Shown here one piece after another: positions 6,701 through 63,114 of a stretch of 64,000 nt of DNA (positions within the stretch are counted from its first letter, which is position 1; each line of letters starts with the position of its first letter). A program made the translations under genes and the position numbers. Below the pieces are notes generated by a model. The model made no database searches. It had not been told where the DNA came from and saw only the letters and a program-made list of their open reading frames with translations. The stretch covers positions 1,550,001-1,614,000 of the forward strand of contig OZ037771.1 in assembly GCA_964035545.1 (NCBI GenBank). Reading direction: 5' to 3'. This DNA comes from Bugula neritina. Taxonomy: Eukaryota > Bryozoa > Gymnolaemata > Cheilostomatida > Bugulidae.

Positions 6701-9700
6701 AGATATTATAGCGTAGTGTATTACAGAGTATGTATTATAGTATAACGTATTACAGGGTAATGTATTCTGGGACATATAAATCCATCAGACCACTAACTGC
6801 TTACACCGAAGGCATCTTACATGTTGTGACCTGTTGTCTATCTAATGTGCTTGACAAGGTAAATGCAGTTGGTAATTCTTTTATAATCTGTAATATTTTA
6901 CTATAATAAAGCAATGATTTTATGTTTTCCTTGATTTTAACCAATCATGATTCAGTAAATAGCTCTCAACCAATCATAGTGAGAAAGTTGTGAAGGCAGC
7001 AGCAGCAGCAGCAGCAGTAGTAGTGCCTGAGAGTGAGACATATACAACAGTGTTGCCAATGGCCAACACTGTATAATCATTATTTAAATAATTAATGGGC
7101 ATTCAGTGTTAGAGTAGTTGGAATTCAAGACAATGCCAATCAAGTGACATCACCATGAGCTGCTGTAACTGTTTATTCTAAACAATTTCTATTATTGATT
7201 GCTGCCGACACCACAGATGGTCAGTGCTGATTCTATTTTGTGTGAAACTTTGCCATTGAGTGTTAAGTTGAGTGTTAATGCACTGCAATAGCTGCCACAA
7301 CAGACTTCATATATTCATTTTGGCTTCGAATATAAAAACATGGTAAGAAGTTTGATTTCAAAACAAAGAAAAGTTAATTTCAGCGCTGAATATACAGGTT
7401 GCATATAAAACAAACACATTCTCTGTTTAGAGAGAAAAGATCTCTCCACTGTAGCATGATTTCACCTACCAGAGGTTTTCTCACTCGTGGAGATTCCAGA
7501 GGACTTGGTAGGCTCCTGTTAGCTATGGAACTAGCATCCCAAGAATGCATATAGGATGGGGGCGCCGAGGATACGGTGCCTTTAACATCACCCGTTTTTA
7601 TCGATGGAGCTCGGTCTACGTTGCTGGCTCGAGAGTTGGGAATGTTGTGATTCGTGGTGAACGATCTAGCAAATAGAAGTGGCAGTCATTGTTGCAATAG
7701 TTTATTATATCTCAGCAGGTAAATCAATAACTGTTCATATGTTGTAGGATGAGACAATTCCCAGTTGGACATTACTCAATAAATCTAAGGATTTACGGAT
7801 ATGAAGATGAGCTCAACATAAAGAGACTATTTCAACACAGGAAATAATAGCACAATGTATGTAACTTAGCCAATAAATATTAGTATACAAGAGAACATAA
7901 CTCCAAGTATTAGAGTTACAAATATAAACAAATATTATTTGTTTCAATAATGACATTCTCCAACTAATTCATGAAATACGATGTTAGATACGCTTATGAG
8001 TTATGTATGAAATTACCTTTCTGAATGGGCCCAGTGCATAGGCACATTCGGTAAAGATGGTTTGGAAGGAGATTGATGGAGATGAGTAGAGTGTGGTGAG
8101 GTGTTGTTTCCATTCACATTTGACATGTGTTCAGTATTGTCAATGCTACAATCTCGGCTCTTTCTCTTACAGAAGTCAATGAGATTATCTCGGATCACTC
8201 GTTGGTTGTCCAAACCACCACGAGTTTCAATAAGTGAATTACGTCTGCAAACATACAGCACAGAGTAAGTGAATTACGTCTGCAAACATACAGCACAGAG
8301 TAAGTGAATTACGTCTGCAAACATACAGCACAGAGTAAGCGGAATACGCCTGAATAAATAAGAATGACACCACACTATAAATGATCATAGAATTAATTTT
8401 CAAGTTTGTACAATTGGAGTCACCTTCCCCTACACACACATGTACGGGGGGGAAGGGGGAAGGGAGGAGGGGAGGGGCTACATTAGACTTACTGTGCGCG
8501 ATACGAGCTTGTACGGTCAATATTCTTTGCTCTCGGTTGCACGCGGCAAGAATCAGTTCTCATGGGTTTGTTTCTCATCTTTACAAATTCATCGGTGCGT
8601 TCAGATAAGTTACTTTGTGAGGTGTATGGAGATTGCAGAGCTAAGAAGTACAAATTTCATTTTATAAGCATCAAAATTTCCCCATAAAAATATAGGAATA
8701 AAAGCTCCATGAAGAAAAAAATGCTAGAAAGTCAAGATTCCTGCAATGATCGCTCAAAACACTAGAGTTGCATTTATTTATTTATTTGTTTACAGGTTTA
8801 TTTATGCTAATACATATTTTTTAGTCAGATGTAACAAAATGCAAATTCATTTTCTAATCATTATAACCTTTTTATCATCAATTTCACTATCACTATTATT
8901 ATCATTATTATTATTAATTAATAAATTCCTAGGTTAATATGGTAATAATTTATAATTATTTTACTTCACTTTTGAAGAAAGATTTTCACCCCCACCTAAC
9001 TTCTACTAATACTAGAACACTCACATTGAGCTTTGCCAAGAGGCGGAGCAGAGTGGGCGGAGTTTTGAGAGCGATGTGTGGGAAGGACTGGGTTGACATT
9101 CACCCTGGCACTGTACTTGTTCGGAGTTATTTCCTCTCGAGTGGGGCTCGTTTTGAGTTTGTTACCGTTCTCTATAGACGTTTGCCTGCAGTGAAATGAT
9201 TATCAAGTTAGAGATCAAATGACAGAGATGAGCTAGAGATAGCGTAGTGGACAGTTACAAGTATTTATTCAGAATCTATGGTAACATTTGAGAATGAAAA
9301 ATAAACACAAATAAATTATGATAGAGTAGGCTATTGCTAGATGTTTGTTGATTTGAGAACTTTTGCTCGTTTAATATATAATTTCAGTTATTGAGAAGTA
9401 ATTTCCTATTCCAAGCTGCTGCTGTGGTGACTGGATTAATACGACATAACTATAACAGCTAAACAAAACATTTCAGTCGAAGTTCTCCATACAATTTTGT
9501 CTCTAATTTTTACAAACTTGTAACAGTTTAATGTAAGTCAAAGGCAAAACTTACAATATAATTTGTATAGATTGTAAACATCCATTTTGACTAGTCGAGT
9601 AGTCACTAGGAGTCACCTAAGTTGAGAAATTAAATTCACAAATACTGCTGCAATGGCCGACATATCAAGTATAAGCTTTAGACTTGTGTCTATTGCATTA

Positions 9701-12700
9701 TGGCGACATATCAATATTACATGAAGCAGACAACTTCTATTATCAAAACAAGGAACTGAATTTTCAAGGCCTGTCAAGTGCATACGATTACCAACATAGA
9801 GCTTTGTGAGAGATAAGCTCATTTACCAAACAATCTACATAATACAAGAATCTAAATTACTTAGAACTGAGCATCAATTATATTTATGGTAGAGTGCAAA
9901 CGTATTAACAAGTAAAATTAACAAACTATCACATTCCATATCAATGACTGACACTGGGATTAGATAAGAAAAAGAGCTGTGTTAAGTAGTGACTTGGTGT
10001 TCCTATTCTTTGACAAATGCAAATGAAAAACACGGAGCTGGTGTTTACAGAGTTGTCTTCTCTATGAAACATTTCAAATATAACCGCAGTTCTTGCAAAG
10101 ATAAACTGTAACTGACAATTTCGTCTAAAAATAGCAAGCTATAATTTCAGCGATTTCTTAGAGTATAAACATTTTAACACCCGTACATCAGTACATCAGC
10201 ACTCAGCAACTAACAGCCCAGATCTCCAGTGTTTATAGACGACACAACTCTGTGATGTAACTCAACAGTCATGGGCAAGTCAAGGCATAGATTATTCAGT
10301 GAGTAGTACATGATTAGCGTGACAGGAGGGCTGATGGAGTAGATTGGAATGCAGATCTCCAAGACTAGATAGTATTGGATGTCATAAACTGGAGCCAACA
10401 TATCCAGACTCCATGTTTACTTTATTATTAACTCTCTGCTCATTAACATAACTCAAGTCAATGTCGTAGAATTCTTTCAAAGTTGGGTTCAAATTACATC
10501 ATTTCCCACTTAGACTCATAAAGTCAGCACAATGACATCACAGCAGACGTGTAGAATGTGCGACATCAATCGCATAAGAGCCGAGCCCCCCTTCCCCCCT
10601 ACTGCTGGTTTAGGGTTTCAGTACATGCGTCACCAGGGTGTCAATTAGCTGCCAGTCAGGTTATGTTGTTAAGCATTAGAAGTCCTCAACTGCACTCTCA
10701 ACACTCGCTAATTATTTACATTGGAGTTCACAGAGAGACACACAGACAGACAGCTTGTGTGCCTTGCATATATTATGCATTAAGTTACATCAGGTTACAT
10801 GCTAAGTTACTGGTACAGCTGGGCATTACTAGATGGTAAACATTGACTTAGAGATTTAGTTACAAGCAGCAGAGTTGGCAAACACATGGACATGTAGTAG
10901 TGAAGTTATCTTCCCCTAGCTAAGTGCTGGATATCCCAATATTCTATTAACCATTCTAATTGGTCAAACAGCAGAGCTGCTTAAACACCATATGGAGTTG
11001 TCTAACACTCTTACAGTGGAAAACATCCTAATGACCAAAGATACACTTCCTGGTGGAAGGATTACTAAAAGTACGAGAAGGAAAAATCTACTTTCAGACA
11101 AAACCAAAGCCATAATCTTCAATACTACTTGTCAATTTCAAAAATCTACAAGAATCCTGTATAGCCTATGGTCCAAGCAGCTTACCTAAGGGTGCGGTGA
11201 CTAGCCTCCCTGACTTGATGGCTGTAGTTTTCCTCCTCATGGCTGGCATTGAAGTCTCTGTCGCCGTTGACGACGGAGAAAGACCTGGTGAGGGCGGAGT
11301 CCATGGAGAGACCCCTGTGGTGGTCACCTTCGAAGCTGCGTCTGTCAATCTAAATGACAACGCAACTAACAATAGCTTCTTGTTGTAAAAATACACACAC
11401 AAAACACCAACCAAACACGTATTGCCTGTCATTGAATAACACTGAATGTAAGAGCTAATTGAAAAGAGTAAATATTTGCACATTATGTTACGAGACTATG
11501 TTCTGATTTTAACACCTAGACAGTCAAGTACTGGAGTATGAAAGCTGAGTCACCTCTACTAGTGTCTAGTACATTCACCTTACAGGAACAATGAGCTTTT
11601 TATACTATATAGTGTGAGATATTGTGCACAGCTGGCATATTGTATACGTCTGATCATGTAGTATCACACACTAGTCACTATACTAGTACAAGTCCAGCAA
11701 CTTTCAGTGTACATACAGTGAGGTGTACATACAGAACCAAATCACCTAATTTTAGCGGCTTTTAATAAATCTCATAGCCATTGATTGTAGCTTGATTTTT
11801 TAAAATCCAATTTATTACAGAGTTCCATGCTCAGCTTGCTGTACACAGAGCTATAAATGAGTACGTATGTGTATATATAAAATGCGTAAGACAGATAATA
11901 TGTCATGCATATAGTTTTGTGTTATAACTTTTAAACTTTATTCAATAACTCTGAAGTGATAATCCAAAATATAGATTTACTTCATCTATTTAGATAAAGT
12001 AGTGAGTAAACAAGCGTTTCTCGTCTATTTTAAATAAAGTTACTAGCCTTTAATAATATAATATTTAAAATATATAAAATATAGAATTATATATAAAGTT
12101 ATACCCACCCTCCTATCAGACAGGTTATGATGCATTCCCATTTCTACAAACTCATTGGACGGAGTAGATGAGGGGATATTCATGTAGTTACCATAGCAGG
12201 GTTCTCCAGGCACTGGACCTACAGTATAACAACGCCTTAGATACAGCAGCTCTCTATCATACAGCTGTCTGGGTAGAGTACACCAGAGTGTAGAGTACAC
12301 CAGAGTGTAGAGTACACCAGAGTGTAGAGTACAACAGAGTGTAGAGTACACCAGAGTGTAGAGTACAACAGAGTGTAGAGTACACCAGGGTGTAGAGTAC
12401 ACCAGGGTGTAGAGTACACTTGATGGTAGAGTACACCAGAGTGTAGAGTACACCAGAGTGTAGAGTACACTTGATAGTAGAGTACACCAGGGTGTAGAGT
12501 ACACCAGAGTGCAGAGTATATACAGAGTGTAGAGTACACCAGGGTGTAGAGTACACCAGGGTGTAGAGTACACCAGAGTGTAGAGTACACCAGAGTGTAG
12601 AGTACACCAGAGTGTAGAGTACACCAGAGTGTAGAGTATACCAGGGTGTAGAGTACACCAGGGTGTAGAGTACAAAGTGGACTAATACCCTAGCAACCTA

Positions 12701-46801: not shown

Positions 46802-47023
46802 TCACTGGGACTTGGTGGTGGCATTATAGACAGCTCCGAGGAGAGTTCCAGCTGCCAAGCCTAAGGCCCCTCCGCCAAGTACGCTGCTACCACGGGCCAC
46901 GGCCGTGGCCACCCCTACTCCAGACACAATGATAGAAGCTCGGTCTACTCTCACCTGACCCCTGTTATGACGGAGTCTGTAGGCGCGGTCAAAGTATTCG
47001 TAATCCATGTCCACATCTGGCTT
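46802..47023 (-). CDS. 174-aa protein, exon 3 and stop
   Basis: 73 codons plus TGA after acceptor TTACAG. It starts KPDVDMDYEYFDRAYRLRHN and ends in a Gly/Ala/Leu-rich hydrophobic segment followed by YNATTKSQ. Confidence 0.8.
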   Translation of the reverse strand, partial: KPDVDMDYEYFDRAYRLRHNRGQVRVDRASIIVSGVGVATAVARGSSVLGGGALGLAAGTLLGAVYNATTKSQ

Positions 47024-49096
47024 CTGTAACACACAGAGAATGTTAAACAGTTCAAAGTTGTCTTCTCTTAGCTATGAGAAAAAAACTGGAATGCCATTTA
47101 GAGCAGCACATATTATAGAAGAAGTTGAGTGAAGAAAAGCTCAGCCTGTCTGTAATTTAGAGAGTGCTGAAATTGTTTAGAGGTTGATTAAAAAGTTCTT
47201 GTCTGGTAGTCTTTCAAACAGATATGACTCCAAGCACCAAGGTATAGCAGAAGTGGCTATCTTATTCTAGAGTTTCTTTAACTTTAGCAAAATATCATGC
47301 CATAATTAGAACAAAACTAGAATAGTTTTAGTTTCACACTAGTAATAAAAATATAATTTCCTGAAACAGAAAATATCTTTAAGAACTAGTACTACGATTT
47401 AGGAACAACTGAAGTGGAACCTATAAATGTTACTAAATAGTATTTCACATAATACTCAGCAACCCCATACGAAGTATGGCATTTAATAGAGAAGATATTT
47501 AATGGCTGACCTTAGAAGTGTTGCGCATAGCTCCGTACGTAGCCAGCACTCCCAAGGGAGCTCCTATAAGCATGCCGTTCCTTGAGCCGTTCATGAGAGA
47601 GCGGGAGATGGGTCCAGTCTTCCTGACGGCTGCGACGCCAGCTCCTATGATGGCTCCTACGATAGAGCCAGCTTGTTCCATCTTCAGCACTACATGGGTA
47701 TACAACTCTCCCTACACACAAACCAGTCTCTGTGCAATACAACGTAGTGAAGGAGATCTACTGTACATATATACAGAAATACGTGAAGATAGTTTGCCTT
47801 TTTGCATTATAGAAAGCAGCTTACACACACAACTAAGCTATAAAAGTTGATTTTAAAATATTGGAGCAAAATGTTGTTTAACAAAAATATTATGTAAGTA
47901 GAAATTAAACTTTTCATTATAATTTTTGCTCCTCCAATAATAAAATATGCTGGAGTTATGTGCACCATACAGTATTATCTTGCATAACCCTATATCTTTA
48001 AAGAGAAAACCCCAGGCTAAACATGTCATCATAATCTTGATATATGCAAGGAGACGTACATTGAAGCCTAGTGGCTTACAACACCAGTGCTTGAACTGTC
48101 CACTGTGACAGGTGGCATTATGATTGATAAATATTTCATCCAGGATATCCATGTTGGTAAGACTGTTATGGCCGGGCAATTATGAAAGATGAATCACTTA
48201 TCATAACAAATTACCATATTTCTAATCTCTGTGAATTTCAAGTTGCATTATATATATTCTATCATCCGTAAGAGTTAGTGGGGATATTGAAGCAGGTTGT
48301 ATATTATCTTCAAGTGATAGCAAAGTAACATCCGAATGACAAACATACTTGCTCTTTTCAAATCAATTGAAACACAAAGAAATATAAAATATAGTAAGGT
48401 AGCTAAATTAAATTATATTGCCAACATCGAACGCTTGCTTATAACTTTTGGCAAACAACAAAATACAACCAACAAAATTTCCTGCGACATCTGCAACTAG
48501 GTCTCAGCCAGGTGAGGTAAGCTTGCAGACAGTCTAATTGAATACCACTGCAATATTATCACAAAGTAAACAAGGAGTCTTCAGAAGAGATAAAGCTAAT
48601 GAAAAGAGACTGTATAATGAAGCTGCTAGATCTTTATAGTAGAGCCCCAACCTATTCTAAATGTTTGTTTTTATATCAGATACTGAATAAGGTGCAGTAC
48701 AAACATACTCTAAAAATAGGATGAAGCATCAGAAAGATAAACAAAGTAAAAACTAGAAGTAAATTTAGTAGCACTGAGGTCTAACAAAGCCCACTATTTC
48801 CTCTCTAATAACACATGGGAAATTCAGCAATAAAAAACCCTAAAATTAAAGTACTACAGGCTACATGTGGTGAATGAATCCCAAGTTTATCTAAAGCTAA
48901 ATTTGCTTTCAATCTGAATATCTGCTGGAGTTTGAAAGGCGATGCTGTAAAGCCTGTGTGATCTTCTAAGAAAGGAAATGAGCAATTGTGTTACCTGTGC
49001 GTGCGGAACTGATTTCATGCTTTCATCATCAACTTCCATACCCACCACATTTCTTAAGTATGGGTACGACACAACTGGACTCGTCTCTCCTGCCAT
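46802..49096 (-). CDS. Complete three-exon gene for a 174-aa glycine-rich, probably membrane-embedded protein
   Basis: Exons 49096-48995, 47711-47511 and 47023-46802, all joined in phase 0 with AG/GT borders, encode 34 + 67 + 73 residues and a TGA stop. The ATG has A at -3 and G at +4. The N-terminal 45 residues are soluble and acidic. Exon 2 encodes a glycine-zipper hydrophobic segment (GSIVGAIIGAGVAAV), basic residues, then a second one (GMLIGAPLGVLATYGAM). Exon 3 has a Tyr/Arg-rich linker (DYEYFDRAYRLRHNRGQ) and a Gly/Ala-rich hydrophobic tail. Paired GxxxG segments of this size recall Tim17/22/23-like or other small mitochondrial inner-membrane proteins, but I cannot assign a family. The start codon faces POLH head to head, 1.5 kb away. 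Introns are 1,283 and 487 bp. Confidence 0.75.
47511..47711 (-). CDS. 174-aa protein, exon 2
   Basis: 67 codons between acceptor GTGTAG and donor GTCAGC, phase 0 at both ends. It carries two glycine-rich hydrophobic stretches separated by VRKTGPISRSLMNGSRN. The exon is clearly GC-richer than its introns. Confidence 0.8.
48995..49096 (-). CDS. 174-aa protein, exon 1
   Basis: 34 codons from ATG to donor GTAACA, phase 0. It encodes an acidic, proline- and tyrosine-containing N-terminus (MAGETSPVVSYPYLRNVVGM and onward) without a recognisable signal or presequence. Confidence 0.75.
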
Positions 49097-50599: not shown

Positions 50600-53500
50600 G
50601 TAAGCGTTAGTAACATTAAATTTTGATTTTCACTTAATCTTCATCTTAATCTTATACTTGTACTTGTAGTTATAAGTTAATGTTATTACATTTACTTATA
50701 GTTATACTTATAGTTATAAGTTATTAGTATAAACTTATACTTATAGTTATTAGTATTACTATAACTATTAGTTATTACTATTAGTATTACTAATACTAAT
50801 ATTAATAGTGATTACTTAGTCATAAGTTGATGTTATAGTAATAGTTATTATGTAACACTAACAGTAACAGTAATTACTAGTTAATAATTATAAATTAGTA
50901 TACTGCTACTCATAGTCATAGTGATATACTTATACTTATAGTGATAGTCATATTTATACTCATACTGATGCTGATGATACTCATAGTGATAGTGATACTG
51001 ATCGTCATTGTCAATCATATTCATACTGATACTCTGTTACCCATAGGGCATAGTGATAGTGCCTGTGATAGTGTCATACTCAGACTGATACTGTATAGAT
51101 AATTATTACATAGCAGTAAGCGTAGCTTTAACTTGAACTTTGAGTTCGAGCAGCGTAATTTAATTTTATATAACAGACTAAAACTAAGCTTTAGGCTTAA
51201 GCCATGCCCATTAAATTTAATCATTATGATTGTGATTGTTATTATCATTGTGATGGCCTTTAGCATAACTTATATACACCTTTATTTTCTTTTGAAGTTC
51301 AAATTCAATTCGAAATAAAGAATTAAAATGGCAATTGCATTGAGTGAATCATTGACAGTTACACAATCTCAATCACTCTGAGTATGAGAAACATGATTAT
51401 CAATACGAATGTTATAATCACTTTTTATCGATATAAATATGAATAATAATAATTAATACCATATATTGTATAATCAAGGATATCATAAATTTTTACAATG
51501 CAGTTTTTTATTGACATTCTTTAAAATTAAAGTAAGTGACAGTATGACTTCCGTTTTCTAAAATATGATTTTCATTACAAATGGCTACAGATAAATCTTT
51601 GTAATTTGAATTTGGCATATTTAATAAAAATGTCTCAATTTTCGACCTGTTTAAACTGTTTTAGAGCTCAATTATTGAATTTTATACCAAGTTTAAAAAC
51701 TCAGACAAAATGATGGATGGAGGTAACTTATATTTCAACTCTAACGTCTCCAACAAAGAATCTCATCGAAAGTTGAAAAGGTGATCAGAAATTGTTAACC
51801 TACAATATAGTTATAAATTAATAACCTGTATTACTAACTATAAATAACTTGCCTGTGAAATACTAGTAGTTGTACATTAGGCTAATTTTAGTTGGTTGTT
51901 GCATCATACTATACTCAAATTACATAACTCTAAAAAGAATCTCAGTGATAAAAGTTATATAATACAATAATACAATATAGTTTGCACTTGTTTGTTGTTA
52001 TAAAATTAGGTGAGAGAATATTTACAAATATCCACGGCCTAAAACTTGCAGCTATTCATTTGTATGCTCAATGTTGTTTAAATTAATTGGCTTTTAGTGA
52101 CATTCAAAGCCGAATAGTAGCACTGATTGACATGGATTGTTTCTATGTTCAAGTGGAGCAGAGATTGGCTCCAGAATGGAAAGGAAAGCCATGTGTTGTA
52201 GTACAGTATAATGAGTGGAAAGGTTTGTCTAGCCTGTGGTGTGGAAATTGTGAGACTAGAATCGTATTTAAAGCATCAGTTTTTGTCACATTTTATTGTG
52301 TTGGTGTGAAACCGTGACTTTATCAGTCTGACATGAAGTAATATTATAGGTTGAAGTAGTAACTCTGCACTATGGAACTATTCATGTTACTGGTTTGAGT
52401 TCTACTTTAATAAAACTGTGTTTAAAATTCTATAAAATATTTTGTACTTATCTTTAATTTTTTTCTTGCTGGTGTGAAACCAGATGCTACTTGGATGCTT
52501 TTCCCAAAGTTGTATTACAAATAACGACAGTATAATACAAGCTCTATGCAAATGTATGATAGATCTCATTGGCTGTTACTGTTAGGAGGGGGAATCATAG
52601 CTGTCGGGTATGAAGCTAGGGCTAAGGGAGTCACTCGCAGAGGTATGAGGGGAGACGATGCCAAACAAGTCTGTCCAGATGTGAAGCTGTTCAGTGTGCC
52701 AGAAATCAGAGGTGAGGAAATATTTGCTGCTTCACTAAAGAAGCTGCCAATTCTTTCCGCATGCTTCAAGGCAGTACGTTTACACTCTACATTACATTAC
52801 TGTAACTGTGTACTACTTGAGATGTTTAGGGAATTGATTTTAGTTATCTGCCAGCATTGCAGCATTTGTGTGTGCAACTTAGTTGTAGTTCTATTGTTTC
52901 TAGTGATGTCAGAAGGGGTAAATTAACTATAGTGTGTAGTTCATAGCCTGAGGGTTTTGTTACAGACCACTAAACTATTAGAACAGTGCATTATAGGAAT
53001 GCCCAGAAAATAGCAATTTTACTTGTATATATTAGAAAAGCATTTATATCCATATGATTATATTTACTTCTATATATTTCCTTTATGTCTTTAAATGATT
53101 ATTTTTACTTTTACATATTTGAATAAATATAATATTTACTTTAACATCTTTACATGAATATATTTACTTTAACATGTTTATGTGAATATATTTACCTTTA
53201 TACATTTATATGTATATTTTATTTACGTGTACATATTTGTATGTATATACTTCATACGCAGGTACATATATTTGCATGTATATAATTCATACGCAGGTAA
53301 AGCAGATCTAACAAGATACAGAGAAGCTGGGGCGGAGGTAATATCTGTTCTCACACAGTTCACGGGATGTAGAGTGGAGAGAGCGAGCATAGACGAAGCG
53401 TATATAGACCTCACTGATAAAGTACAGGATATGATTTCACAGGTTTCAATGTCACAGCTAGCGATACCCTCCACTCAGGACTTACCTCATACGTTCGTAG

Positions 53501-56500
53501 TCGGCTCTGAAAACGGTATGAGTTGTACAAGATGTCTAACATATACACAAGTAACATTATATTGTAATAATAACAAATGGAATAAAACATTTCTTTGTTT
53601 TATTGATAGAATATTTAATAATAGTTTTTTCAATAGTTTTATTACTGAGATTATTGTTAGTGACCCAGGTTTGTTTTGCGGTAGGTTTTACGAATCACAC
53701 TATAGATTTATAATAAGTGCAGCTCCTATTTATTCTCTGACTGTATCTAAAACCTGGATGCATTCTGATCACGTTTTTAGCATTTGTTGTAAATATGTAT
53801 ACTCTGAGACGCTAAAAGAATAAAACTTGGACTCGAGGCAATCTATTTAAGGACTTTAGAGCATATCACATGACCAGAATGTCGTATTGATATAAACCAG
53901 CTGTTTGACAGAGGTTTGGAGTGGCTCCTTTCTACTTGTATAGACTGTGGCTTCTTAAACTCTCACAGCTTTTGATCCTACACTTTCCTATGCTTTAGAC
54001 AACCGTGAAGATTCGCTCAGAGAGTGGCTCGAGTCATTGAGCTCTCCAGACTCTCTGGATTCTCACAATGATCTCCGATTGTGTTTTGGCGCCGTCATTG
54101 TGGAGAAGATGAGAAAGGCAGTTAAGGATCAGACAGGGTTTGAGTGCTCAGCAGGCATTTCACATAACAAGGTAGAATACAGTTTCACATAACAAGGTAG
54201 AATATAGTTTCACATAACAAGGTAGAATACAGTTTCACATAACAAGGTAGAATATAGTTTCACATAACAAGGTAGAATATAGTTTCACATAACAAGGTAG
54301 AATATAGTTTCACATAACAAGGTAGAATATAGCTTCACATAACAAGGTAGAATATAGTTTCACATAACAAGGTAGAATATAGTTTCACATAACAAGGTAG
54401 AATATAGTTTCACATAACAAGGTAGAATATAGTTTCGCATAACAAGGTAGAATATAGCTTCACATAACAAGGTAGAATATAGCTTCACATAACAAGGTAG
54501 AATATAGTTTCACATAACAAGGTAGAATATAGTTTCACATAACAAGGTAGAATATAGTTTCACATAACAAGGTAGAATATAGTTTCACATAACAAGGTAG
54601 AATACAGTTTCACATAACAAGGTAGAATATAGTTTCACATAACAAGGTAGAATACAGTTTCACATAACAAGGTAGAATACAGTTTCACATAACAAGGTAG
54701 AATATAGTTTCACATAACAAGGTAGAATATAGTTTCACATAACAAGGTAGAATATAGTTTCACATAACAAGGTAGAATATAGCTTCACATAACAAGGTAG
54801 AATATAGTTTCACATAACAAGGTAGAATATAGTTTCACATAACAAGGTAGAATATAGTTTCACATAACAAGGTAGAATATAGTTTCACATAACAAGGTAG
54901 AATATAGCTTCACATAACAAGGTAGAATATAGCTTCACATAACAAGGTAGAATATAGTTTCACATAACAAGGTAGAATATAGTTTCACATAACAAGGTAG
55001 AATATAGTTTCACATAACAAGGTAGAATATAGTTTCGCATAACAAGGTAGAATATAGCTTCACATAACAAGGTAGAATATAGCTTCACATAACAAGGTAG
55101 AATATAGTTTCACATAACAAGGTAGAATATAGTTTCACATAACAAGGTAGAATATAGTTTCACATAACAAGGTAGAATATAGTTTCACATAACAAGGTAG
55201 AATATAGCTTCACATAACAAGGTAGAATATAGCTTCACATAACAAGGTAGAATATAGTTTCACATAACAAGGTAGAATATAGCTTCACATAACAAGGTAG
55301 AATACAGTTTCACATAACAAGGTAAAATATAGTTTCACATAACAAGGTAGAATATAGTTTCACATAACAAGGTAGAATATTGTAGACGGTTTCATCCTCT
55401 AAGCCCTCTAATGATATAAACTGTAGTTATAGCAAGTTTCATACAGCAATTCATGTGTTGCCCAGGTTCTTTCAAAGCTAGCCTGTGGACTACATAAACC
55501 ACAAAAGCAGACCATTCTGGGCATCAGTGCAGTGCCCGACTTATTTTCCACTTTCCCAATAAGCAAGGTCAGACATTTTGGCGGAAAGCTGGGGCAGAGT
55601 ATAAAAGAAGACTTTGGTGTGAACTTTATAGGAGAGTGTGTGACAATTCCTCTCAAGGTGAACTCTTTGATGCAGAAGTTCGTAAACAATATTATATAGG
55701 CTGTTGGATACCCCCACCCGATAGCTAATTGTTAATCAGAACTCTAAGGCTTGTACAGCCAGTTACAGTCAGACTGTTTCTATTCAGTGATCTCTTTAAA
55801 TCTGAATTATTCAACTTCTTAATTTTATTTTCATTTTATTGAACCTCACTTCTTGTGGTACTTCCATTACTTTTTCTCCTAAGATTTATTATTAAGATTT
55901 CCCCCTCCCGAGATGATTATTTAAAAATGATGTCAGGTTCTATCATTGTCAACATTATTATCCACTATTCAGGATTTGAGGGACCAATATGGTACAAAGA
56001 CGGCTAACTTTATACACGACATGTGCAGAGGTCATGACCCCGAGCCTGTCAATGACCGACAACTCCCAAAGTCAGTTGGCTGCAGTAAGAATTTTAGAGG
56101 AAAGCTTATAATAACCACATACAAGAAGGTACTCACTGTTAACTGTTGACTATTTACTGTTCACTACTTACTATTACCTATTCACTATTAACTACTCATT
56201 ATTTACCAGTAATTATTTACCAGTTAAATATTCACAAAATGTTTATTGCTGTTCCTGTGTATTGCTAAACCAACTTATGTACCTTAGCTTTCAATGTAAG
56301 TAATTTATTATGTGAGTTTGCTTTGTAACCAGGCCCGCTATTGGCTGAAACAGTTGTCTGCAGAAGTAGAAGAGAGGCTGATTAAAGATCGGGAGCAGAA
56401 TCATAGAATACCTAAAAGTCTCTCCATGTCAGTGAGGTTTGTGTATAGATTTGTGTATAGACTTGCGTAAAGATTTGTATAGACTTATGTATAGACTTGT

Positions 56501-58875
56501 GTATAGACTTGTGTATAGACTTGTACACGATTTGTCTATATACTTATGTATAGACTTATGTATAGACTTGTGTATAGACTTGTGTATAGACTTGTGTATA
56601 GACTTGTGTATAGACTTGTACACGATTTGTCTATATACTTATGTATAGACTTGTGTATAGACTTGTACACAAGTTGCTGAACTATCCAGTCTCTTATGAC
56701 TGTGAATAAAGTAGACTGAATTGTTCACCTGAAGAGGGAGGTAACATACAGAATATCTCTACAGGCGTGGAAAATGTTTAAATACACAAAAATAAAGAAT
56801 CTAGATTTTCTGTACTGAAAATATATTTTTATAGAATTTTATAGCAAAATATTTTGTAAATAAATACTGTGTTGTAGGTTCACAGACTATCAGTGGCTGT
56901 CCAGGGCCCTCCCCCTCTCTAAGATGACGCAGCAGGCAATAGAGAACTCAGCTATGACTACTCTCACTAAGATCTGTGGTGAAGAGACTACAGTACTCAA
57001 TCCTGCCATCACCTGTTTGAGTACGTCTGCTTATTCTCTCTGCTTACCTTCTGCTTTCTCTGTTTTCATATCTGCTATGTTCTTTCTGGTATTAATTGTC
57101 ATCAACGCTTGGCAAGTTTCTAAAAGTTGTCACATCATGTTTTAGAAACTTCATTTTTGTCGAATGCTGTTTAATTTTACTATCATATTATTTGTGTATA
57201 ACAGCAGTTGCAGGTGTTTGTGCCTAGAGAAAGTAATCTCACATGTTGTTATGGTCATATGTATTTACTCAAATCAATTGCAGTTTGCCATGCTGCTTGT
57301 TGCACTATTATAGGTCTAAGTGCTGGGAAGTTTGAGGAGCTCGAGGGCAAGTCCCTTACAAACTACTTCTCTACCGGAGCTAAGTCTACAGTTGACATAT
57401 TTGACAGCATAGCCCCTCCGTCCCCCGAACCCCAGGTGATTCCCGGACCGCCGCTACCGCCGAGTAATGGCTGCAGTTTGAAGGCTTTCTTCAATGACTC
57501 ACACAAGGTCCTTGACCCTTTCAACTCCCTAGCTAACTCCTTCACTTCTCCGTCCAAACCCGAACCGGCCAAACCAAAAGGCATTGCTAAATATTTTAAA
57601 CAAACTGCGCTGAATAAAGTATCTCCCAAAGCCTCTGTGGGTGTATTTTATGATCCGAGTGGAGGCAGACTGAACGAGGATGTTTTAGATATGGACTCCT
57701 ATTCAAACTCTGGACTACAAGAAGACTGTGTCAAATGTGATGAGTCAGGAGAATTGACAGATCTAGGAGAGGACAACTTTGAGAGAGAAAACTTAAAAGA
57801 CATTTCACTGAAAGAATCAGATGTTACTGTCGTCGTAAAGGAAGTGCTGAACGAGCTGATTGATTCGTTTGCCAGTGACTCATCAACTCACTCGACCTCT
57901 AAGCTGTTAGCTGAACTAACGGATGGAAAACAGGAGGTCTGTGAAGCTACAGTCCCGCACTCTGACACTTCATTTCTAGATGTCATTGAAAGGGAGGAGC
58001 GAATGTTTAGAGAACGGACCAATCAGGTGAAAGATTCAGTCACATCTCTAGAAAATTTCACTAATGTCAAATCTCCGCTTCCGATTGGCCGTTTCATAGA
58101 GAAGCCCGTTACTCCAAGGCGAGATAATTCCTCCAAGTTGAGGAAAATGACGTTGAATAAACAAAAGAAATCTGGTGTGACAGACAACTCGAAGCGTCCT
58201 GGTATTGATATCAGAGCTTTCACACAGTCCAGTAACTCGACAGTGTGGGATAGAAGTTATGAGCCGGTGTTGAGGGTTCGTGACTGTGAAACCGGGGGTT
58301 TGGGGTTTGATGCTCTGAGTAGAGAAGATTCTAGTAGAACTCGGGGTACTAGGGAGAATATGGAGGACAGTGATGAGGAGATTTCTGTGGTGTGGCAAGC
58401 TGATGGCTGCCGTAAAGTCTCTCCAGGTGTTGGTAAGTCTTCTTTACTCTTACATGTTCTGCATCCAGAAAGGTGACAACTCCAGTGAAACCTAGCTAAT
58501 GTGTAAACATGTGGGACATTTCGGCATGCCATCCTAGTACTACAAACTTATTTTATGTAAAAAGAGTGAAGATGCATACTTTTCTTTTACAAATTTTTTA
58601 TATTTTGGAATGCGACAGCTTTATGTTCACAAGATACGTTTATATCCAACCACCCAAAGTGCCATACTATAAGGAGTTTAGGACTATATGTCTTCACTTT
58701 TTTGTATTTCAACTCGTAGTCTGTAAAAGGCATCCTTGTTCTTTTTTGGCTGTTAGTGTAGTGAACACGCTGCCTTCATAAACTGTTTGCAGGCGCCAAA
58801 AGTAAGTGGAAGTCAGCACAGGGAGCCTCTTCATCACATAAGAAGTTGAGGTCCATCACCGATTACTTCAAGTAG
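50589..58875 (+). CDS. POLH: DNA polymerase eta (translesion Y-family polymerase), complete, 11 exons
   Basis: Exons 50589-50599, 52098-52222, 52586-52711, 53297-53515, 53999-54171, 55466-55657, 55973-56128, 56333-56436, 56878-57020, 57314-58432 and 58793-58875 sum to 2,451 nt: 816 residues and TAG. The enzyme copies past UV dimers at stalled nuclear replication forks. The palm shows IALIDMDCFYVQVEQR-type sequence (VALIDMDCFYVQVEQR here, metal ligand Asp15) and RASIDEAYIDLT (Asp120, Glu121), followed by CSAGISHNK|VLSKLACGLHKP, RQLPKSVGCSKNF and the little-finger domain ending LSAGKF at about residue 423. The C-terminal half (about 390 residues) is disordered and has four PIP-box-like motifs. 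A Cys-x2-Cys pair at 555/558 has no following His pair, so the usual UBZ zinc finger appears degenerate or lost. Family similarity comes from memory of the human protein (713 aa). Confidence 0.95.
50600..52097 (+). other. POLH intron 1 with cryptic hexamer repeats
   Basis: 1.5 kb. From 50640 to 51110 it is built of degenerate hexamers (ACTTAT, AGTTAT, TAGTAT, then CATACTGATAGTGATAG). The other half is AT-rich and unremarkable. Confidence 0.5.
52098..52222 (+). CDS. POLH: POLH exon 2 (first catalytic motif)
   Basis: 125 nt from acceptor TTTTAG to donor GTTTGT, ending in AAA G. It carries DMDCFYVQVEQR, including the first metal-binding aspartate, and the VVQYNEWKG segment typical of Pol eta. 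Confidence 0.92.
52586..52711 (+). CDS. POLH: POLH exon 3
   Basis: 126 nt from acceptor TGTTAG to donor GTGAGG. It reads GGGIIAVGYEARAKGVTRRG and onward, matching the Pol eta finger motif (human GIIAVSYEARAFGVTR) that contacts the incoming nucleotide and template lesion. Confidence 0.93.
52712..53296 (+). other. POLH intron 3 with degenerate ~33-bp repeats ending in a duplicated acceptor
   Basis: From about 53040 a diverged repeat (TATATTTACTTTAACATGTT-like) runs to the exon. The last two units both end in TTCATACGCAGGTA, so the acceptor exists twice, 35 nt apart. Confidence 0.6.
53297..53515 (+). CDS. POLH: POLH exon 4 (SIDEAY motif)
   Basis: 219 nt from acceptor ACGCAG to donor GTATGA. 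It carries KADLTRYREAGAEV and RASIDEAYIDLT, the palm motif with two catalytic acidic residues. A copy of the acceptor (ATACGCAGGTA) lies 35 nt upstream but would shift the frame. Confidence 0.92.
53999..54171 (+). CDS. POLH: POLH exon 5 (ends at the splice-donor array)
   Basis: 173 nt from acceptor CTTTAG. It reads DSLREWLESL-like sequence, GAVIVEKMRKAVKDQTGFEC and SAGISHNK, ending exactly at AAG|GTAGAA. That junction is the first unit of the 49-copy 25-bp array filling most of the next intron. Confidence 0.92.
54161..55380 (+). repeat. 49-copy 25-bp minisatellite made of the POLH exon 5 end plus its 5' splice site
   Basis: The unit CACATAACAAGGTAGAATAT plus AGTTT repeats 49 times in exact 25-bp register without an indel (the last copy starts at 55361 and is cut at 20 bp). 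Unit 1 is the real exon end (CACATAACAAG, coding H-N-K) plus the first intron bases. Substitutions are few: TAC for TAT, AGCTT for AGTTT, and CGCAT for CACAT at 54436 and 55036, exactly 600 bp apart. Paired AGCTT units recur every six units late in the array. Confidence 0.97.
55466..55657 (+). CDS. POLH: POLH exon 6
   Basis: 192 nt from acceptor TGCCCAG to donor GTGAAC, phase 0. It reads VLSKLACGLHKPQKQTILGI and onward, with the helix-hairpin-helix thumb region VRHFGGKLG. It resumes the conserved LAKLACGLNKP block interrupted by the array-bearing intron. Confidence 0.94.
55973..56128 (+). CDS. POLH: POLH exon 7
   Basis: 156 nt from acceptor TTCAG to donor GTACTC, phase 0. It contains MCRGHDPEPVNDRQLPKSVG and CSKNF, the conserved start of the little-finger domain, which grips the DNA template. 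Confidence 0.94.
56333..56436 (+). CDS. POLH: POLH exon 8
   Basis: 104 nt from acceptor AACCAG to donor GTTTGT, ending in phase 2. It reads ARYWLKQLSAEVEERLIKDR and onward to SLSMSVR, matching the little-finger helix LAQELEERL. The first base of the following intron is also the first base of a 12-bp array. Confidence 0.9.
56437..56672 (+). repeat. 12-bp minisatellite starting at the POLH exon 8 donor
   Basis: Units of GTGTATAGACTT type repeat about 18 times, with an internal duplicated block that includes TTGTACACGATTTGTCTATA. The first unit (GTTTGTGTATAG) is the splice donor itself. Confidence 0.9.
56878..57020 (+). CDS. POLH: POLH exon 9
   Basis: 143 nt from acceptor TTGTAG to donor GTACGT. 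It reads FTDYQWLSRALPLSKMTQQA and onward to NPAITCL, aligning with the human LSSLRRCCALTRYDAHKMSH region of the little finger. Confidence 0.88.
57314..58432 (+). CDS. POLH: POLH exon 10 (regulatory C-terminal region)
   Basis: 1,119 nt from acceptor TTATAG to donor GTAAGT. It starts SLSAGKFEEL, the end of the catalytic core, then encodes a Ser/Asp/Glu-rich disordered region. Three motifs match the non-canonical Pol eta PIP pattern (hydrophobic at 4, aromatics at 7 and 8): GKSLTNYF (428-435), GCSLKAFF (469-476) and PKGIAKYF (504-511). FF-containing motifs can also bind REV1. CVKC at 555-558 is the only trace of a zinc finger. Confidence 0.88.
58793..58875 (+). CDS. POLH: POLH exon 11 (C-terminal PIP box and stop)
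   Basis: 83 nt from acceptor TTGCAG to TAG. It reads AKSKWKSAQGASSSHKKLRS then ITDYFK and stop. LRSITDYF at 808-815 matches the extreme C-terminal PIP box of vertebrate Pol eta (MQTLESFF), and the Lys/Arg-rich stretch before it is a likely nuclear localisation signal. Confidence 0.9.
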
Positions 58876-60314
58876 CCTTACAGGGCAGGAGTAAGCAACT
58901 CCTGGCTTTAAACCAAATACTTTTAGAAAACGACTCTATAGACTGAGAATTAGAAACAATAATTCTTTACTAATCTCTGCAAAACAGGTTATGTTTCAGT
59001 TTATTCTAGATTCTTACATTTTTCTCAAAATTAATCTCATCAAAATTATAATCCTTTTATGTCAATTATTTGTTTTACTTTTGTACGGTGCTAATAATAA
59101 AAACTGGATATATTTTCTAAATAACCATTTTTCTCACAGTTTTTTCAAGGATACGCTTTTCTTGAAGCCTTCTGAACAAATCAAATGCATTTATTTAAAA
59201 ACATGAAAATTAAATTTATTACTTAGAAAATGGAACAAAAAATGTTAGTTTTTTTAAGTTTTGCAATGTTAAATAGTGTATTGTTTGGTGACACTTGACC
59301 TTGGCACATAGCCTGAGAGTCTGTTGTTGGGTGTGTGGCTAGACGGGCAGTCTTGAAAGGCTCAGTAGTAGGGAAATATTTTATTGGTCTTTTGGATACA
59401 TTTTAGTTTATGTTGTGGGTTGAAGATTGCATGAGAACATAACTTCTCTTGTTACATTTCTCATTACTGCAACTAACGTGGCGGATGAACATTGATATCT
59501 AAATGGTTACTGAGGGGTTATATAGCAATGAGATCTAAACACTGATAGTGGCTAGTAACTTGATAGTATAATACAGACAATGTGTAGTCCATATCAGTCT
59601 AGGGTAGCTTTTGTTTGTTATTAGGGATTTGATTAATGACCTTTTAAATGATGTGAAATGTCACTGGAATGACGGCTACTTTACCAGTTTGCTATAGTTT
59701 TATATTGTAATTACTAGCAAGTTACACTCCTATAGACCAGCCTGATAGATTACCCTTTAACCCTTTGCAATAGACTAACTTATACTAAAAGTAGAACTTC
59801 TGGGTGCCAGTAACAGCTTAGTAATACCAAGGTACGTATTCTATTCTACAACATTCTACTGACAGTATTTCACTTACAGTATTTTTCCAGACTCCAATAT
59901 AAAACTAAAAGTAATTTTATTATTATGTAATACTGTATTCAACTAGTAAAGGCTTTAAAGTATACCTGTAAAATATGCAAGCAATATCATATAATGCAAT
60001 ATTCTATTATATTATTGATATTACTGAACTTATATCAATCTTTATTGCATTGCCAGTAAGTGTAGCAGTCTACTGGTGTATTGTTCAAGTAGAAATGCTT
60101 CCTAAATTAACTGTCGTGCTTTGCTTTACTCTGGCTTTACTTGCTGCTATTAGCATTAGTTCCAAGACAGGCAAAGTCGGGCAGTGTCTTTATAGAACCT
60201 CAGGCTATGGAAGTCTCTATTTAGCTGCAACATAGATTCAGTAGTCCTTAGTATCTACGCAGTATCTACACATGCAGGTTTTTAGCCTAAGTTTCTATTT
60301 CATAGATTGTAGCC
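58876..60314. other. POLH to MTARC intergenic region
   Basis: 1.4 kb between two same-strand genes, holding the POLH 3' UTR and presumably the MTARC promoter. I see no further gene, RNA or repeat array. A plus-strand frame at 59975-60235 is rich in Ile, Leu and Ala but has no support as an exon. Confidence 0.45.
59096..59101 (+). terminator. Poly(A) signal candidate for POLH
   Basis: AATAAA 221 nt after the POLH stop codon, in T-rich sequence. It is the nearest canonical hexamer downstream. Confidence 0.5.
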
Positions 60315-60535
60315 ATGGTTTCTACACCCAGCAGAGAGATGACCGGGGCGTTAGTCCTGGGTGCCGGAGTGCTACTAGTAGCTGGTTATGTTCTTTATAA
60401 GCGGAAATCAAAATCCTATTCGGTTGGGAAACTTTCACAGCTCATCCTCTATCCGATCAAATCAGGGCCACCCATGCATGTCCAATCAGCAGAATGCTTA
60501 GAAACTGGACTTAAATATAAACAAGTTTATGATAG
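60315..60535 (+). CDS. MTARC1/MTARC2-like: MTARC-like exon 1 (anchor and MOSC_N start)
   Basis: 221 nt from ATG to donor GTCAGT, phase 2. It encodes the N-terminal membrane anchor and the YPIKS motif typical of MOSC_N domains. Confidence 0.9.
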
Positions 60536-63114
60536 GTCAGTATATGTTGTTGTCATGGCAATATGTGTATACACAAAAATTATTTGCATCGCAATTTCAA
60601 CGACTTGAAACTTGTTTATTAGTGCACTGTCTTGTGGTTGAGGTCAAGGTCGATACGCTTGTAATGCGATATTTTCATTTCCTCTGCAGACAGTTTGCTC
60701 TGATAGGAAAGACAACTTTCATCAGCATAAGAAAAAACCTACGACTTCTAAAGTTAAAAATAAATTATGACGAAGACACGAATAGCTTGATTCTAAAAGC
60801 TCCTACGATGACTGCTGCATTGTCTATACCTCTGCAGGTTCCAGAATATGACCCCAGTAAGGTCAAATCCTTCATGTAAGTGAGACTATCGTAAGTTATG
60901 CTTCATTACTATGTTTCTAATGGTAGCATAGATTGCTGTATCAGTTGGAATATTTATTGGGTGCATAATTCTATAACATATCATAATAAATGAATTTACA
61001 CATGAAAGGGGAAGCAACTCATGAATTTAACTTTTTCACAAAAAAATAACTATTTCTGCTTATCGATATTATAAACAATCTTAAAACAAAACTAAACCAT
61101 ATCACAGAAATAGAAATGTGTGAATTTTATTGACAGGTGGTTCGATAATCGAGAGACCCTCTACTTTGATTACGGAGATACGTACTCCAAGTGGCTCAGT
61201 GAATTCCTTGAAGAAGAATGCAGAATGGGGTATGCACACCCTGAGATTGTAAGGGAGATAAATCCTGAGATGGTGTACAATCATACAGACGTACACCCAG
61301 ACAGCAAGGTAATAGGCTCACAGGCTACACATCATGAACTTCCTGCTGACTAGCCTTAGCTCTAGAGTTGTATAGCCGCAATGTGTAAATCATACTAGTG
61401 TATTAACAAAGAGTGCTTTATAAGCTGTCAGTGAACAGGCTGTTGTTCTACACATTTTAGTACAAGTTTTAAAGGTAATGGAAAATACCCTTATGATAAA
61501 CATTGCAAATTCTTAAAGTGTACCAAGTGGCTTATATTTGAATAAATGTGTTTTAGAGATGAGGTTTTGAATGTGAAATTTTGTCACAGAAGATGATCAA
61601 CACTGGCTTATCTAATTTTTTTTTGCCAAAGTTCTAAATTTTTCTGAAGATGCAAGTGGCTGTGGCATGTTTTTTTATATGACTACCGAGCCTATTACCA
61701 TCAGGCTAAAAGAGTTTATGTCTAAAATGATTCAACATTTAGCTATTTCTTTGTAGTGAATCCATTTCACTTTGACATTATTTACAGATTTTGTTCTCAA
61801 ACACTCACCCATTTATGATTGCCACACAAGCGTCTTTAGATGATTTGAATGAAAGGCTAGAAGACAAGGTCACTATGGATTCATTTCGACCCAACTTTGT
61901 AATAACAGGAGAAGGCAACTCCGTCATTGAACCGTACATCGAGGTCTGTAGTCTGTTGAACAGAATTATGTATTGCAGTGTTAGTATTTAGCAGAATAAT
62001 TTAGATTTTGTGAATTTGAGTTTGATAGAACAAGGGGAAACACAACTTCTTAAACATGAATTGCCAATATTTTTTTATTTTGAATGTATTGCAGTGAAAT
62101 AAAAGTGATGTTAAAAGTTTATTAATCTTTTAGAAAGTTCATAACTCTAACTATATAAAACCAAAAGCTTTATAAGGCTATTTATAGCTTTATAAAGCTA
62201 TAAATAGCTTTATAAAGTTATAAATAGCTTATGTCAAGTGTCTTGGAACAGCCAGTCTATAGTTCCATAGTTTAGTTTAAACTCAAATATTACACAGGAA
62301 GAATATTTTCTAAAGCCTACTCATCGTTAAGCTTATTAAAAAGCTCAAGATTTTAAATATTTTCTGAGCAGTTTACATCAGCTAATATTGTCAACGGCTA
62401 ATAGAACACAAGTACAAACATATATCATTGACAAATAGTGCATGCATTCTGTAGGATTCTTGGCGTGAGATTTGCGTAGGACCAGATGCTGTTCTGTACA
62501 ACTCGCGGGCGTGTCCAAGATGTCCCATGATTTATGTTGACTACAATAACCACAAGATGAGAGATAACAAGGAACCAATGACAACTCTTCTCAGGTAAGT
62601 TACAGCTGAGCAACCAATGGCAATGCTCGATAAAAGCAGTCAAACTCTCTAACTAGTAACATGAAATTATTGAGCATTAACGACAATTGAAATATCTTTT
62701 ATATCAGTGATGTAAACAAACCTCATAATTTAATGTGCAATTTATAATCTTATCAGCCAGTAACAGATTTTCTAAATGAGTAAATCCACAATATACATAA
62801 AACTAATAAGCAAACCATGCCTTATAATAACCCTAATAGTGTTGAAATAGTTCTACTAGTACTAATAGTACCAATAATCCTAATAGTCTTAGAGTAGTAC
62901 TTCTAGTACTGCTAGTACTAATAGTCATGATAGTCTAGTTAGTACTACTAGTACCAATAGTCCTAAAAGCTATTAGCATATTACTCTTAGATATCGCAGA
63001 GGGACTGTGAAGAAGGACAAAAGCAAGACTGTATTTGGAATCAATGTTACTCTGATTAAACATGGCCGAATTTCTGTCGGAGATAAATTCGTAGCTGCTT
63101 ATGCTACAGCATAG
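60315..63114 (+). CDS. MTARC1/MTARC2-like: Mitochondrial amidoxime-reducing component (MOSC-domain molybdenum enzyme), complete, 6 exons
   Basis: Exons 60315-60535, 60690-60875, 61137-61308, 61788-61943, 62455-62594 and 62991-63114 total 999 nt: 332 residues and TAG. The start is GCCATGG. In the family, mARC reduces N-hydroxylated substrates such as amidoximes, taking electrons from cytochrome b5 and its reductase at the outer mitochondrial membrane. Here a hydrophobic anchor at about residues 10-27 (TGALVLGAGVLLVAGYVLY) is followed by basic KRKSK, fitting a signal anchor. The MOSC_N barrel begins KLSQLILYPIKSG. The MOSC domain has SFRPNFVI and ACPRC, whose second Cys (268) should be the molybdenum ligand. 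The substrate-side region between residues 70 and 90 is shorter than in the human proteins. An invertebrate single gene cannot be assigned to one vertebrate paralogue. Confidence 0.93.
60690..60875 (+). CDS. MTARC1/MTARC2-like: MTARC-like exon 2
   Basis: 186 nt from acceptor CTGCAG to donor GTAAGT. It joins as AG|A (Arg) and reads QFALIGKTTFISIRKNLRLL and onward to YDPSKVKSF. It corresponds to the second half of the MOSC_N barrel. Confidence 0.88.
61137..61308 (+). CDS. MTARC1/MTARC2-like: MTARC-like exon 3
   Basis: 172 nt from acceptor GACAG to donor GTAATA. It reads WFDNRETLYFDYGDTYSKWL and onward. It matches the family block where GD/CGE precedes the W-(I/L)-S/T-x-F-L helix. Confidence 0.9.
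61788..61943 (+). CDS. MTARC1/MTARC2-like: MTARC-like exon 4 (SFRPNFVI motif)
   Basis: 156 nt, phase 0 at both ends, acceptor TTACAG and donor GTCTGT. It contains HPFMIATQASLDDLNERL and SFRPNFVI, both strongly conserved in MOSC enzymes around the cofactor. Confidence 0.92.
62160..62235. repeat. AT-rich repeat TATAAAGCTATAAATAGCTT
   Basis: Three to four imperfect copies of a largely self-complementary unit (AGCTTTATAAAGCT), in MTARC intron 4. Confidence 0.8.
62455..62594 (+). CDS. MTARC1/MTARC2-like: MTARC-like exon 5 (molybdenum-ligand cysteine)
   Basis: 140 nt from acceptor CTGTAG to donor GTAAGT. It reads DSWREICVGPDAVLYNSRAC followed by PRC. The second cysteine of ACPRC lines up with human mARC1 Cys273. 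Confidence 0.92.
62840..62965. repeat. Cryptic ACTAGTACTAATAGT tract
   Basis: Degenerate repeats of TAGTACTAATAGTCCTAATAG in MTARC intron 5, ending about 25 nt before the exon 6 acceptor. The style is like the hexamer fields at 28.7 and 50.7 kb. Confidence 0.7.
62991..63114 (+). CDS. MTARC1/MTARC2-like: MTARC-like exon 6 and stop
   Basis: 124 nt from acceptor TCTTAG to TAG. It reads YRRGTVKKDKSKTVFGINVT and onward to ISVGDKFVAAYATA. It matches the family C-terminus, where a GxxxxV..GxI.VGD pattern closes the barrel. Confidence 0.9.

Follow-up and report, generated by a model that had tools for sequence, protein, structure and literature searches.

In the bryozoan Bugula neritina, the 5' splice site that ends the fifth coding exon of POLH, the gene for DNA polymerase eta, heads a tandem array in which the site is present 49 times. 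We propose, with a probability of about 0.72, that an ordinary minisatellite fell on this splice junction in a minisatellite-rich genome and that it is tolerated since the donor nearest the exon is used. The window analysed here is the whole 64,000-nucleotide stretch of DNA that contains the gene, positions 1550001–1614000 of B. neritina chromosome 7. Coordinates without a locus name refer to this window.

The POLH gene and its array

When joined, the exons align with human DNA polymerase eta across all 354 residues submitted (PDB 4o3s, E 2e-110), which bears out the identity of the host gene given in the original prediction. On the plus strand, the gene model contains exons at 52098–52222 (IQSRIVALIDMDCFYVQVEQ...), 52586–52711 (GGIIAVGYEARAKGV...) and 53297–53515 (KADLTRYREAG...). 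These are followed at 53999–54171 by a 173-nt exon, placed by homology, which ends with GISHNK in phase 0 and whose last 14 nt are the exonic part of the first array copy. It is the fifth coding exon when an upstream exon implied by P0001, a second B. neritina protein record discussed below, is counted. The intron that follows spans 54172–55465 (1,294 nt) and is 94% array. The next exon, 55466–55657, begins with VLSKLACGL, is preceded by the acceptor gttgcccag and was placed by homology and translation, while homology places two more at 55973–56128 (DLRDQYGTKTANF...) and 56333–56436 (ARYWLKQLSAEVEERL...).

Both ends of the intron, donor 1 (54172–54173) and the acceptor at 55466, are fixed because GISHNK and VLSKLACGL are contiguous in human DNA polymerase eta (residues 215–229, PDB 4o3s). 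The same contiguity shows that the first copy holds a genuine 5' splice site, as had been claimed. In this alignment the junction sits after the residue aligned to human K220. Human POLH, we assume, has an intron at this very position (c.660/661), and on that basis the array-bearing intron is probably old.

Two neighbouring open reading frames can be named. One lies downstream of POLH on the same strand (60306–60605) and encodes a MOSC N-terminal domain (E 8e-6); the other, on the minus strand (46805–47071), matches DUF1757 (E 4e-7). Of ten window reading frames searched against Pfam, these two alone scored above the cut-off, and four weaker names were disregarded.

The array occupies 54158–55382 on the plus strand. 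Tiling of the copies shows a 25-bp unit repeated 49 times in one register with no indel, and TRF reports the same structure (period 25, 48.9 copies, 97% matches, 0% indels, score 2306), so the predicted copy number and the lack of indels stand. Each unit is composed of 14 exonic bases (TTTCACATAACAAG, first copy 54158–54171) and 11 intronic bases (GTAGAATATAG), and not of 11 coding and 14 intronic bases as was first described. The consensus, TTTCACATAACAAGGTAGAATATAG, is found in 29 of the 49 copies. The remaining 20 differ from it by one or two bases and draw on five substitutions, one or two each. A donor is present in all 49 units: 48 carry AAGGTAGAA (AAG|GTAGAA), the form that had been assigned to every copy, and copy 47 carries AAGGTAAAA (AAG|GTAAAA). 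The order of variants in copies 8–17 recurs in copies 32–41, which represents an internal block duplication. Predicted RNA folding of the array start gives a z-score of -2.36, with 2/100 shuffles equally stable and a scattered structure.

Minisatellites are head-to-tail arrays with a unit of roughly 10–60 bp, and the POLH array, with 49 units of 25 bp, is one of them. Its origin is local, because all 28 exact genome-wide matches (no mismatch allowed) to the 21-mer AAGGTAGAATATAGTTTCACA lie inside the array. Dispersed copies, as an introner would have, were thus absent outside POLH among exact 21-mer matches in the whole assembly. The genome searched comprised 295 contigs and 215.85 Mb; the accessible part of the assembly's description gives 320 scaffolds and 216.00 Mb (PMC11480708). 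We suggest that 14 exon and 11 intron bases were copied in tandem into the intron, and that slippage or unequal exchange afterwards enlarged the array and homogenised its copies. This growth process is our interpretation of the in-register copies and the block repeat 8–17/32–41, which are themselves observed. Since the native exon end is itself the first copy, the coding sequence has stayed the same.

A second record of the gene

The best protein match, P0001, is a 244-aa DNApol-eta from B. neritina with 98% identity over the matched part. It is a different sequence from that of the window because 5 of 214 residues differ. The C-terminus of P0001, ...CSAGISHNKVEYSFT, is a read-through into copy 2 (VEYSFT). 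The start of the array is therefore no artefact of one assembly, since a separate record reads into the second copy. The original prediction had allowed that independent assemblies might lack the array; what was found is that its start recurs in P0001 with five residues different. The record covers the start of the array and not its length, and there is no splice at donor 1 in that model.

P0001 probably derives from a 2020 assembly of PacBio and Illumina data with AUGUSTUS models. The available text on the 2020 B. neritina annotation describes AUGUSTUS predictions with transcriptome hints (PMC7576161). If P0001 is such a prediction, read-through RNA may exist. At the least, donor arrays can break gene models, as the P0001 model of B. 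neritina POLH stops inside the array.

That the array was created during assembly is extremely improbable. We found nothing in support of such an error, and both the divergent P0001 with its VEYSFT ending and the quality of tzBugNeri2.1 speak against it; the latter is a HiFi assembly with 132-fold coverage and a QV of 53.7, according to the portion of its description that could be consulted (PMC11480708).

A separate observation concerns the content of the assembly. In a kinase search, 14 of 16 matches on C1–C8 were free of internal stops. On small contigs (e.g. L009–L038), most matches contained in-frame TAA and TAG and few contained TGA, which is a ciliate-like code. To judge from these reading frames, the assembly seems to include a ciliate associate of the bryozoan.

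Products and choice of the 49 donors

Donor 1 is the only one that joins GISHNK to VLSKLACGL, and by translation and homology it is the sole donor that yields the full-length protein. Donors 2, 3, 10 and 49 were translated and every one gives ...GISHNKVEYSFT followed by a stop. The same truncation applies to all donors from 2 to 49, because the first unit retained already sets the frame and contains the stop. Two predictions are confirmed here: the first donor alone is productive, and a stop is reached within seven codons after the later ones. Judged by translation, copies 2–49 would be intronic decoy donors.

The U1 duplex was computed for eight array copies. The predicted energy is -6.5 kcal/mol for copies 1, 2, 8, 12, 18, 46 and 49 and -6.8 for copy 47, compared to -14.0 for a perfect site and -4.4 to -10.2 for the seven POLH donors. 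By this measure the array donors are weak and near-equal, and predicted strength cannot separate the copies. Local sequence is equally uninformative: donor 3 matches donor 1 at every position from -14 to +58, and donor 2 does so from -14 to +8 and first departs from it at +9. As donors 1–3 are locally identical, what decides between them must be either position or exon sequence further upstream than -14.

Splicing would join donor 1 to the acceptor at 55466, which is the only choice that keeps the conserved protein. Most likely, donor 1 would be set by exon definition, that is, by pairing of the acceptor at 53999 with the nearest downstream donor. The decoy donors would then go unused, or transcripts spliced at them would be degraded by nonsense-mediated decay. 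A duplication across a donor does no harm to the exon, provided that splicing takes the donor closest to it. There is counter-evidence to splicing at donor 1, as P0001 reads into the array instead of splicing there. In addition, competition between identical donors in vitro favours the intron-proximal one, which here is copy 49. In DOK7, as far as the accessible text goes, neighbouring donors also compete, upstream exon sequence influences the choice, and the intron-proximal donor is preferred; that donor is also the stronger one, and DOK7 has two unlike donors whereas POLH has 49 near-identical ones (PMC5585400).

The facts about the donors also bear on a regulatory role. Here, a fixed share of transcripts would use decoys, reach the same stop and be degraded, and the length of the array would tune POLH output. 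The single truncation shared by donors 2, 3, 10 and 49, the near-identity of the donors, the weakness of the first one and the reading of P0001 into the array all suit such an attenuator. We nevertheless regard it as unlikely, since the similar arrays in unrelated genes described below fit neutral tolerance better than regulation of a single gene.

Each unit also contains AG|GT plus a GT...AG stretch of 11 nt, so that the unit could be read as a segment of 14 nt, flanked by TATAG and GTAG, that is subject to recursive or micro-exon splicing. An intron of 11 nt is far below known minimum intron lengths. Acceptor-grade sequence before AG|GT, as a recursive site would have, was not found in the one array unit scored with a generic matrix: its AGs score -1.9 and -2.7, below the range of -0.5 to 2.2 for the seven POLH acceptors. 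This form of splicing is accordingly given almost no weight.

Arrays at other splice sites of POLH and the window

The POLH array had been presented as unique, and in this respect the prediction fails: donor arrays recur elsewhere in POLH, in a sampled locus (L052) and in loci found through the hexamer AAGGTA, all in the same genome. In POLH, an array starts within 14 nt of the donor at 3 of 7 donors. Besides the 49-copy array, these include a plus-strand 7/14/21-bp array at 56135–56203, which starts 6 nt past the donor of exon 55973–56128 and repeats no exon bases, and a plus-strand 12-bp array at 56438–56666, which starts in the donor dinucleotide of exon 56333–56436. The acceptor of exon 53297 is spanned by a 35-bp duplication (CATACGCAG|GTA twice; 53233–53299, plus strand). 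All three were called by TRF.

Three more cases lie on the minus strand of the window. A 35-bp repeat of 3.1 copies (8231–8339) multiplies the 3' splice site (TGTATGTTTGCAG|ACGTAATTCACTTA) of the predicted exon 8017–8244, such that the acceptor is present three times. An array of eight 25-bp units (6003–6206) starts at the donor of a predicted exon (GTCACTCGAG|GTACGTAT), which it abuts at 6207 with no exact repetition of exon bases. Finally, an array of 24 units of 17 bp (12273–12674) stops 4 nt short of a predicted exon's acceptor. Elsewhere in the window, 1.1 kb of a 7-bp GTATAGA array (2594–3708) runs directly into a 38-bp unit present in two exact copies.

Donor and acceptor arrays in the genome

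A genome sample of 14 loci of 10 kb each was analysed for comparison. It contained 44 arrays (0.31 per kb) against 37 in the window (0.58 per kb), both for periods of at least 7. A fifteenth locus, L045 (C2:18000001–18010000), was left out since its entire 10 kb is one long tandem array (99.8% covered), perhaps a centromeric satellite.

Two of the 44 sampled arrays span a donor by reading, and both are in L052, a single 10-kb locus; one of them is in an Ig-like exon (V-set E 0.005, below the cut-off). On the acceptor side, an array of 16.5 × 20 bp (L049:8003–8334) ends on the acceptor of PRMT5 (TTACAG|CTG), the joined exons matching PRMT5 chains with a best E of 3.6e-19. Many acceptor-like AG copies seem to precede the real PRMT5 acceptor. 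Two further acceptor candidates were found, in L051 and L052. The PRMT5 intron holds two arrays, the one ending on the acceptor and another 45 nt past the donor; the latter had been called a donor-edge array at L049:6715 by the exon caller and was dropped given this distance.

The whole genome was then surveyed for AAGGTA occurring three times at gaps of 8–38, which gave 4,345 matches. Flanks were read for the first 20 of the 24 loci among the first 100 matches listed, all on C1. By this reading, 7 of the 20 loci have a coding exon's donor as their first copy (L057, L060, L062, L065, L069, L072 and L073). L060 is the weakest of the seven, with irregular spacing and no second GT at the chosen period, and without it the count is 6/20. 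In an eighth locus, L056, the array starts a few bases past the donor. Eleven loci are away from any recognisable donor, and L058 starts inside its own array and was not judged. Among the eleven is L066, which looks like an acceptor on the opposite strand, its exon being one that we take to be NOC-like. L055, L067 and L071 were not accepted as exons, and L070 hardly repeats.

The clearest homology is that of L069, which is INTS1 (Pfam E 2e-14; human INTS1 E 3.5e-9), with the alignment to the human protein reaching the last residue before the donor. Matches are weak for L062 (UPF2, E 0.0098), L072 (NCAPD3, E 0.084) and L065 (Laminin_G_3, below the cut-off). No family match was obtained for L057, L060 and L073, whose exon calls rest on open frame and codon use; the exons of L065 and L066 had no match among solved structures, and an NCBIfam search with three exons returned none.

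The extent to which exon bases are repeated exactly varies. It is 14 in POLH and L065, 17 in L072, 12 in the Ig-like exon of L052 and 8 in INTS1, followed by 6 in L057 (25 allowing mismatches), 6 in L062, 4 in L073, 3 at L052:35–215 (18 by looser matching) and 2 in L060. It is 2 for the POLH exon at 56333 and 0 for both the POLH exon at 55973 and the exon at 6207. Scaling 7/20 to the approximately 1,000 loci expected from 4,345 matches (100 matches being 24 loci) suggests some hundreds of genes with donor arrays, a rough estimate based on a single hexamer and on part of one chromosome.

Placement of the arrays

An association with so many junctions could mean that splice junctions are favoured sites of array birth, for instance as a result of DNA damage linked to transcription or splicing. 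The 7 of 20 AAGGTA loci and the 3 of 7 POLH donors point in this direction, though the 20 loci were picked by a donor-like motif. About the donors of 60 predicted exons, array starts number 2 + 2 in two 40-nt bins and 0–1 in each of the next nine; array ends about the acceptors number 1, 4, 1, 3, 0, 2, 0, 0, 2, 1 and 0 by bin. These counts are small and lean on the window, which was itself chosen for its array. Exon-facing calls also exceed opposite-edge controls, at 7 vs 3 and, in a second comparison, at 9 vs 6 donors and 13 vs 7 acceptors.

Random placement nevertheless accounts for the counts. When the 44 sample arrays were re-placed at random, a mean of 4.5 fell on donor edges and 5.4 on acceptor edges, against 5 and 8 observed (permutation P 0.48 and 0.18). 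In the window without the POLH array, 3 donor and 5 acceptor edges were observed against means of 3.7 and 4.6. The exon caller is noisy and the permutation has little power, such that a twofold excess would be missed. The excess of AAGGTA triples over the reversed hexamer (4,345 vs 511) was rejected as proof of donor targeting, as the non-donor pair AAGTAG and GATGAA is also strongly skewed (3,913 vs 514). As far as seen, array placement is blind and targeting is not needed, because arrays placed at random yield a similar number of junction calls. Targeted birth is therefore considered improbable, more so than a regulatory role. As there is no excess over random placement, a repeat-rich genome together with tolerance explains the facts. 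From the arrays on other genes, it would appear that the splicing machinery of B. neritina tolerates donor arrays in general.

Discussion

The original prediction knew of no described case of this scale. There is a precedent: in 1995, Turri, Cuin and Porter (NAR 23:1854) reportedly found that a minisatellite in human 6-16 (IFI6/G1P3) provides multiple splice donor sites. Its unit is said to be 12 bp, present in about 26 copies, with the donors used in mRNA. In both cases a minisatellite supplies one gene's transcript with multiple donor sites. The first POLH copy holds the native donor of its exon, and the copies after it are repeats of that donor; 6-16 reportedly shares this feature. POLH differs in its 25-bp unit, its 49 copies and its near-identical donors, where any shift truncates the protein, and B. 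neritina has similar arrays on other genes of its genome.

The Rogers model derives new introns from AGGT segments duplicated in tandem, and fission yeast offers multiple tandem duplications of 24 bp with an intron running across them, both as set out in the available part of one paper (PMC4974935). POLH resembles this model in that a short AG|GT segment lies in tandem in a coding gene and splicing across the copies would leave the peptide unchanged. It differs in that one intron boundary only is multiplied, the acceptor bearing no relation to the repeat. The POLH intron is probably old, so that the array does not call for the gain of a new one. No paper on genome-wide donor arrays was found among the matches listed, which were titles and starts of abstracts, with most subscription journals outside the search. 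What seems to be new is the copy number combined with a truncating consequence, plus the recurrence within one genome.

A broader proposition is more tentative, and we hold it at somewhat less than even odds: in hundreds of B. neritina genes the 5' splice site heads a tandem array of near-identical donors, and the spliceosome reliably takes the donor nearest the exon. Two-site minigenes are the usual means of studying selection between equal 5' splice sites. B. neritina offers natural donor arrays on conserved genes, with copy numbers that differ widely and reach 49, and in these every wrong choice is readable from mRNA. The POLH array indicates that a gene can absorb more than 1 kb of repeats over a splice boundary with its protein unchanged. 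If the broader proposition is true, the genome is a natural experiment in which 5' splice-site choice in B. neritina would be set by exon definition rather than by the strength of a donor or its proximity to the acceptor.
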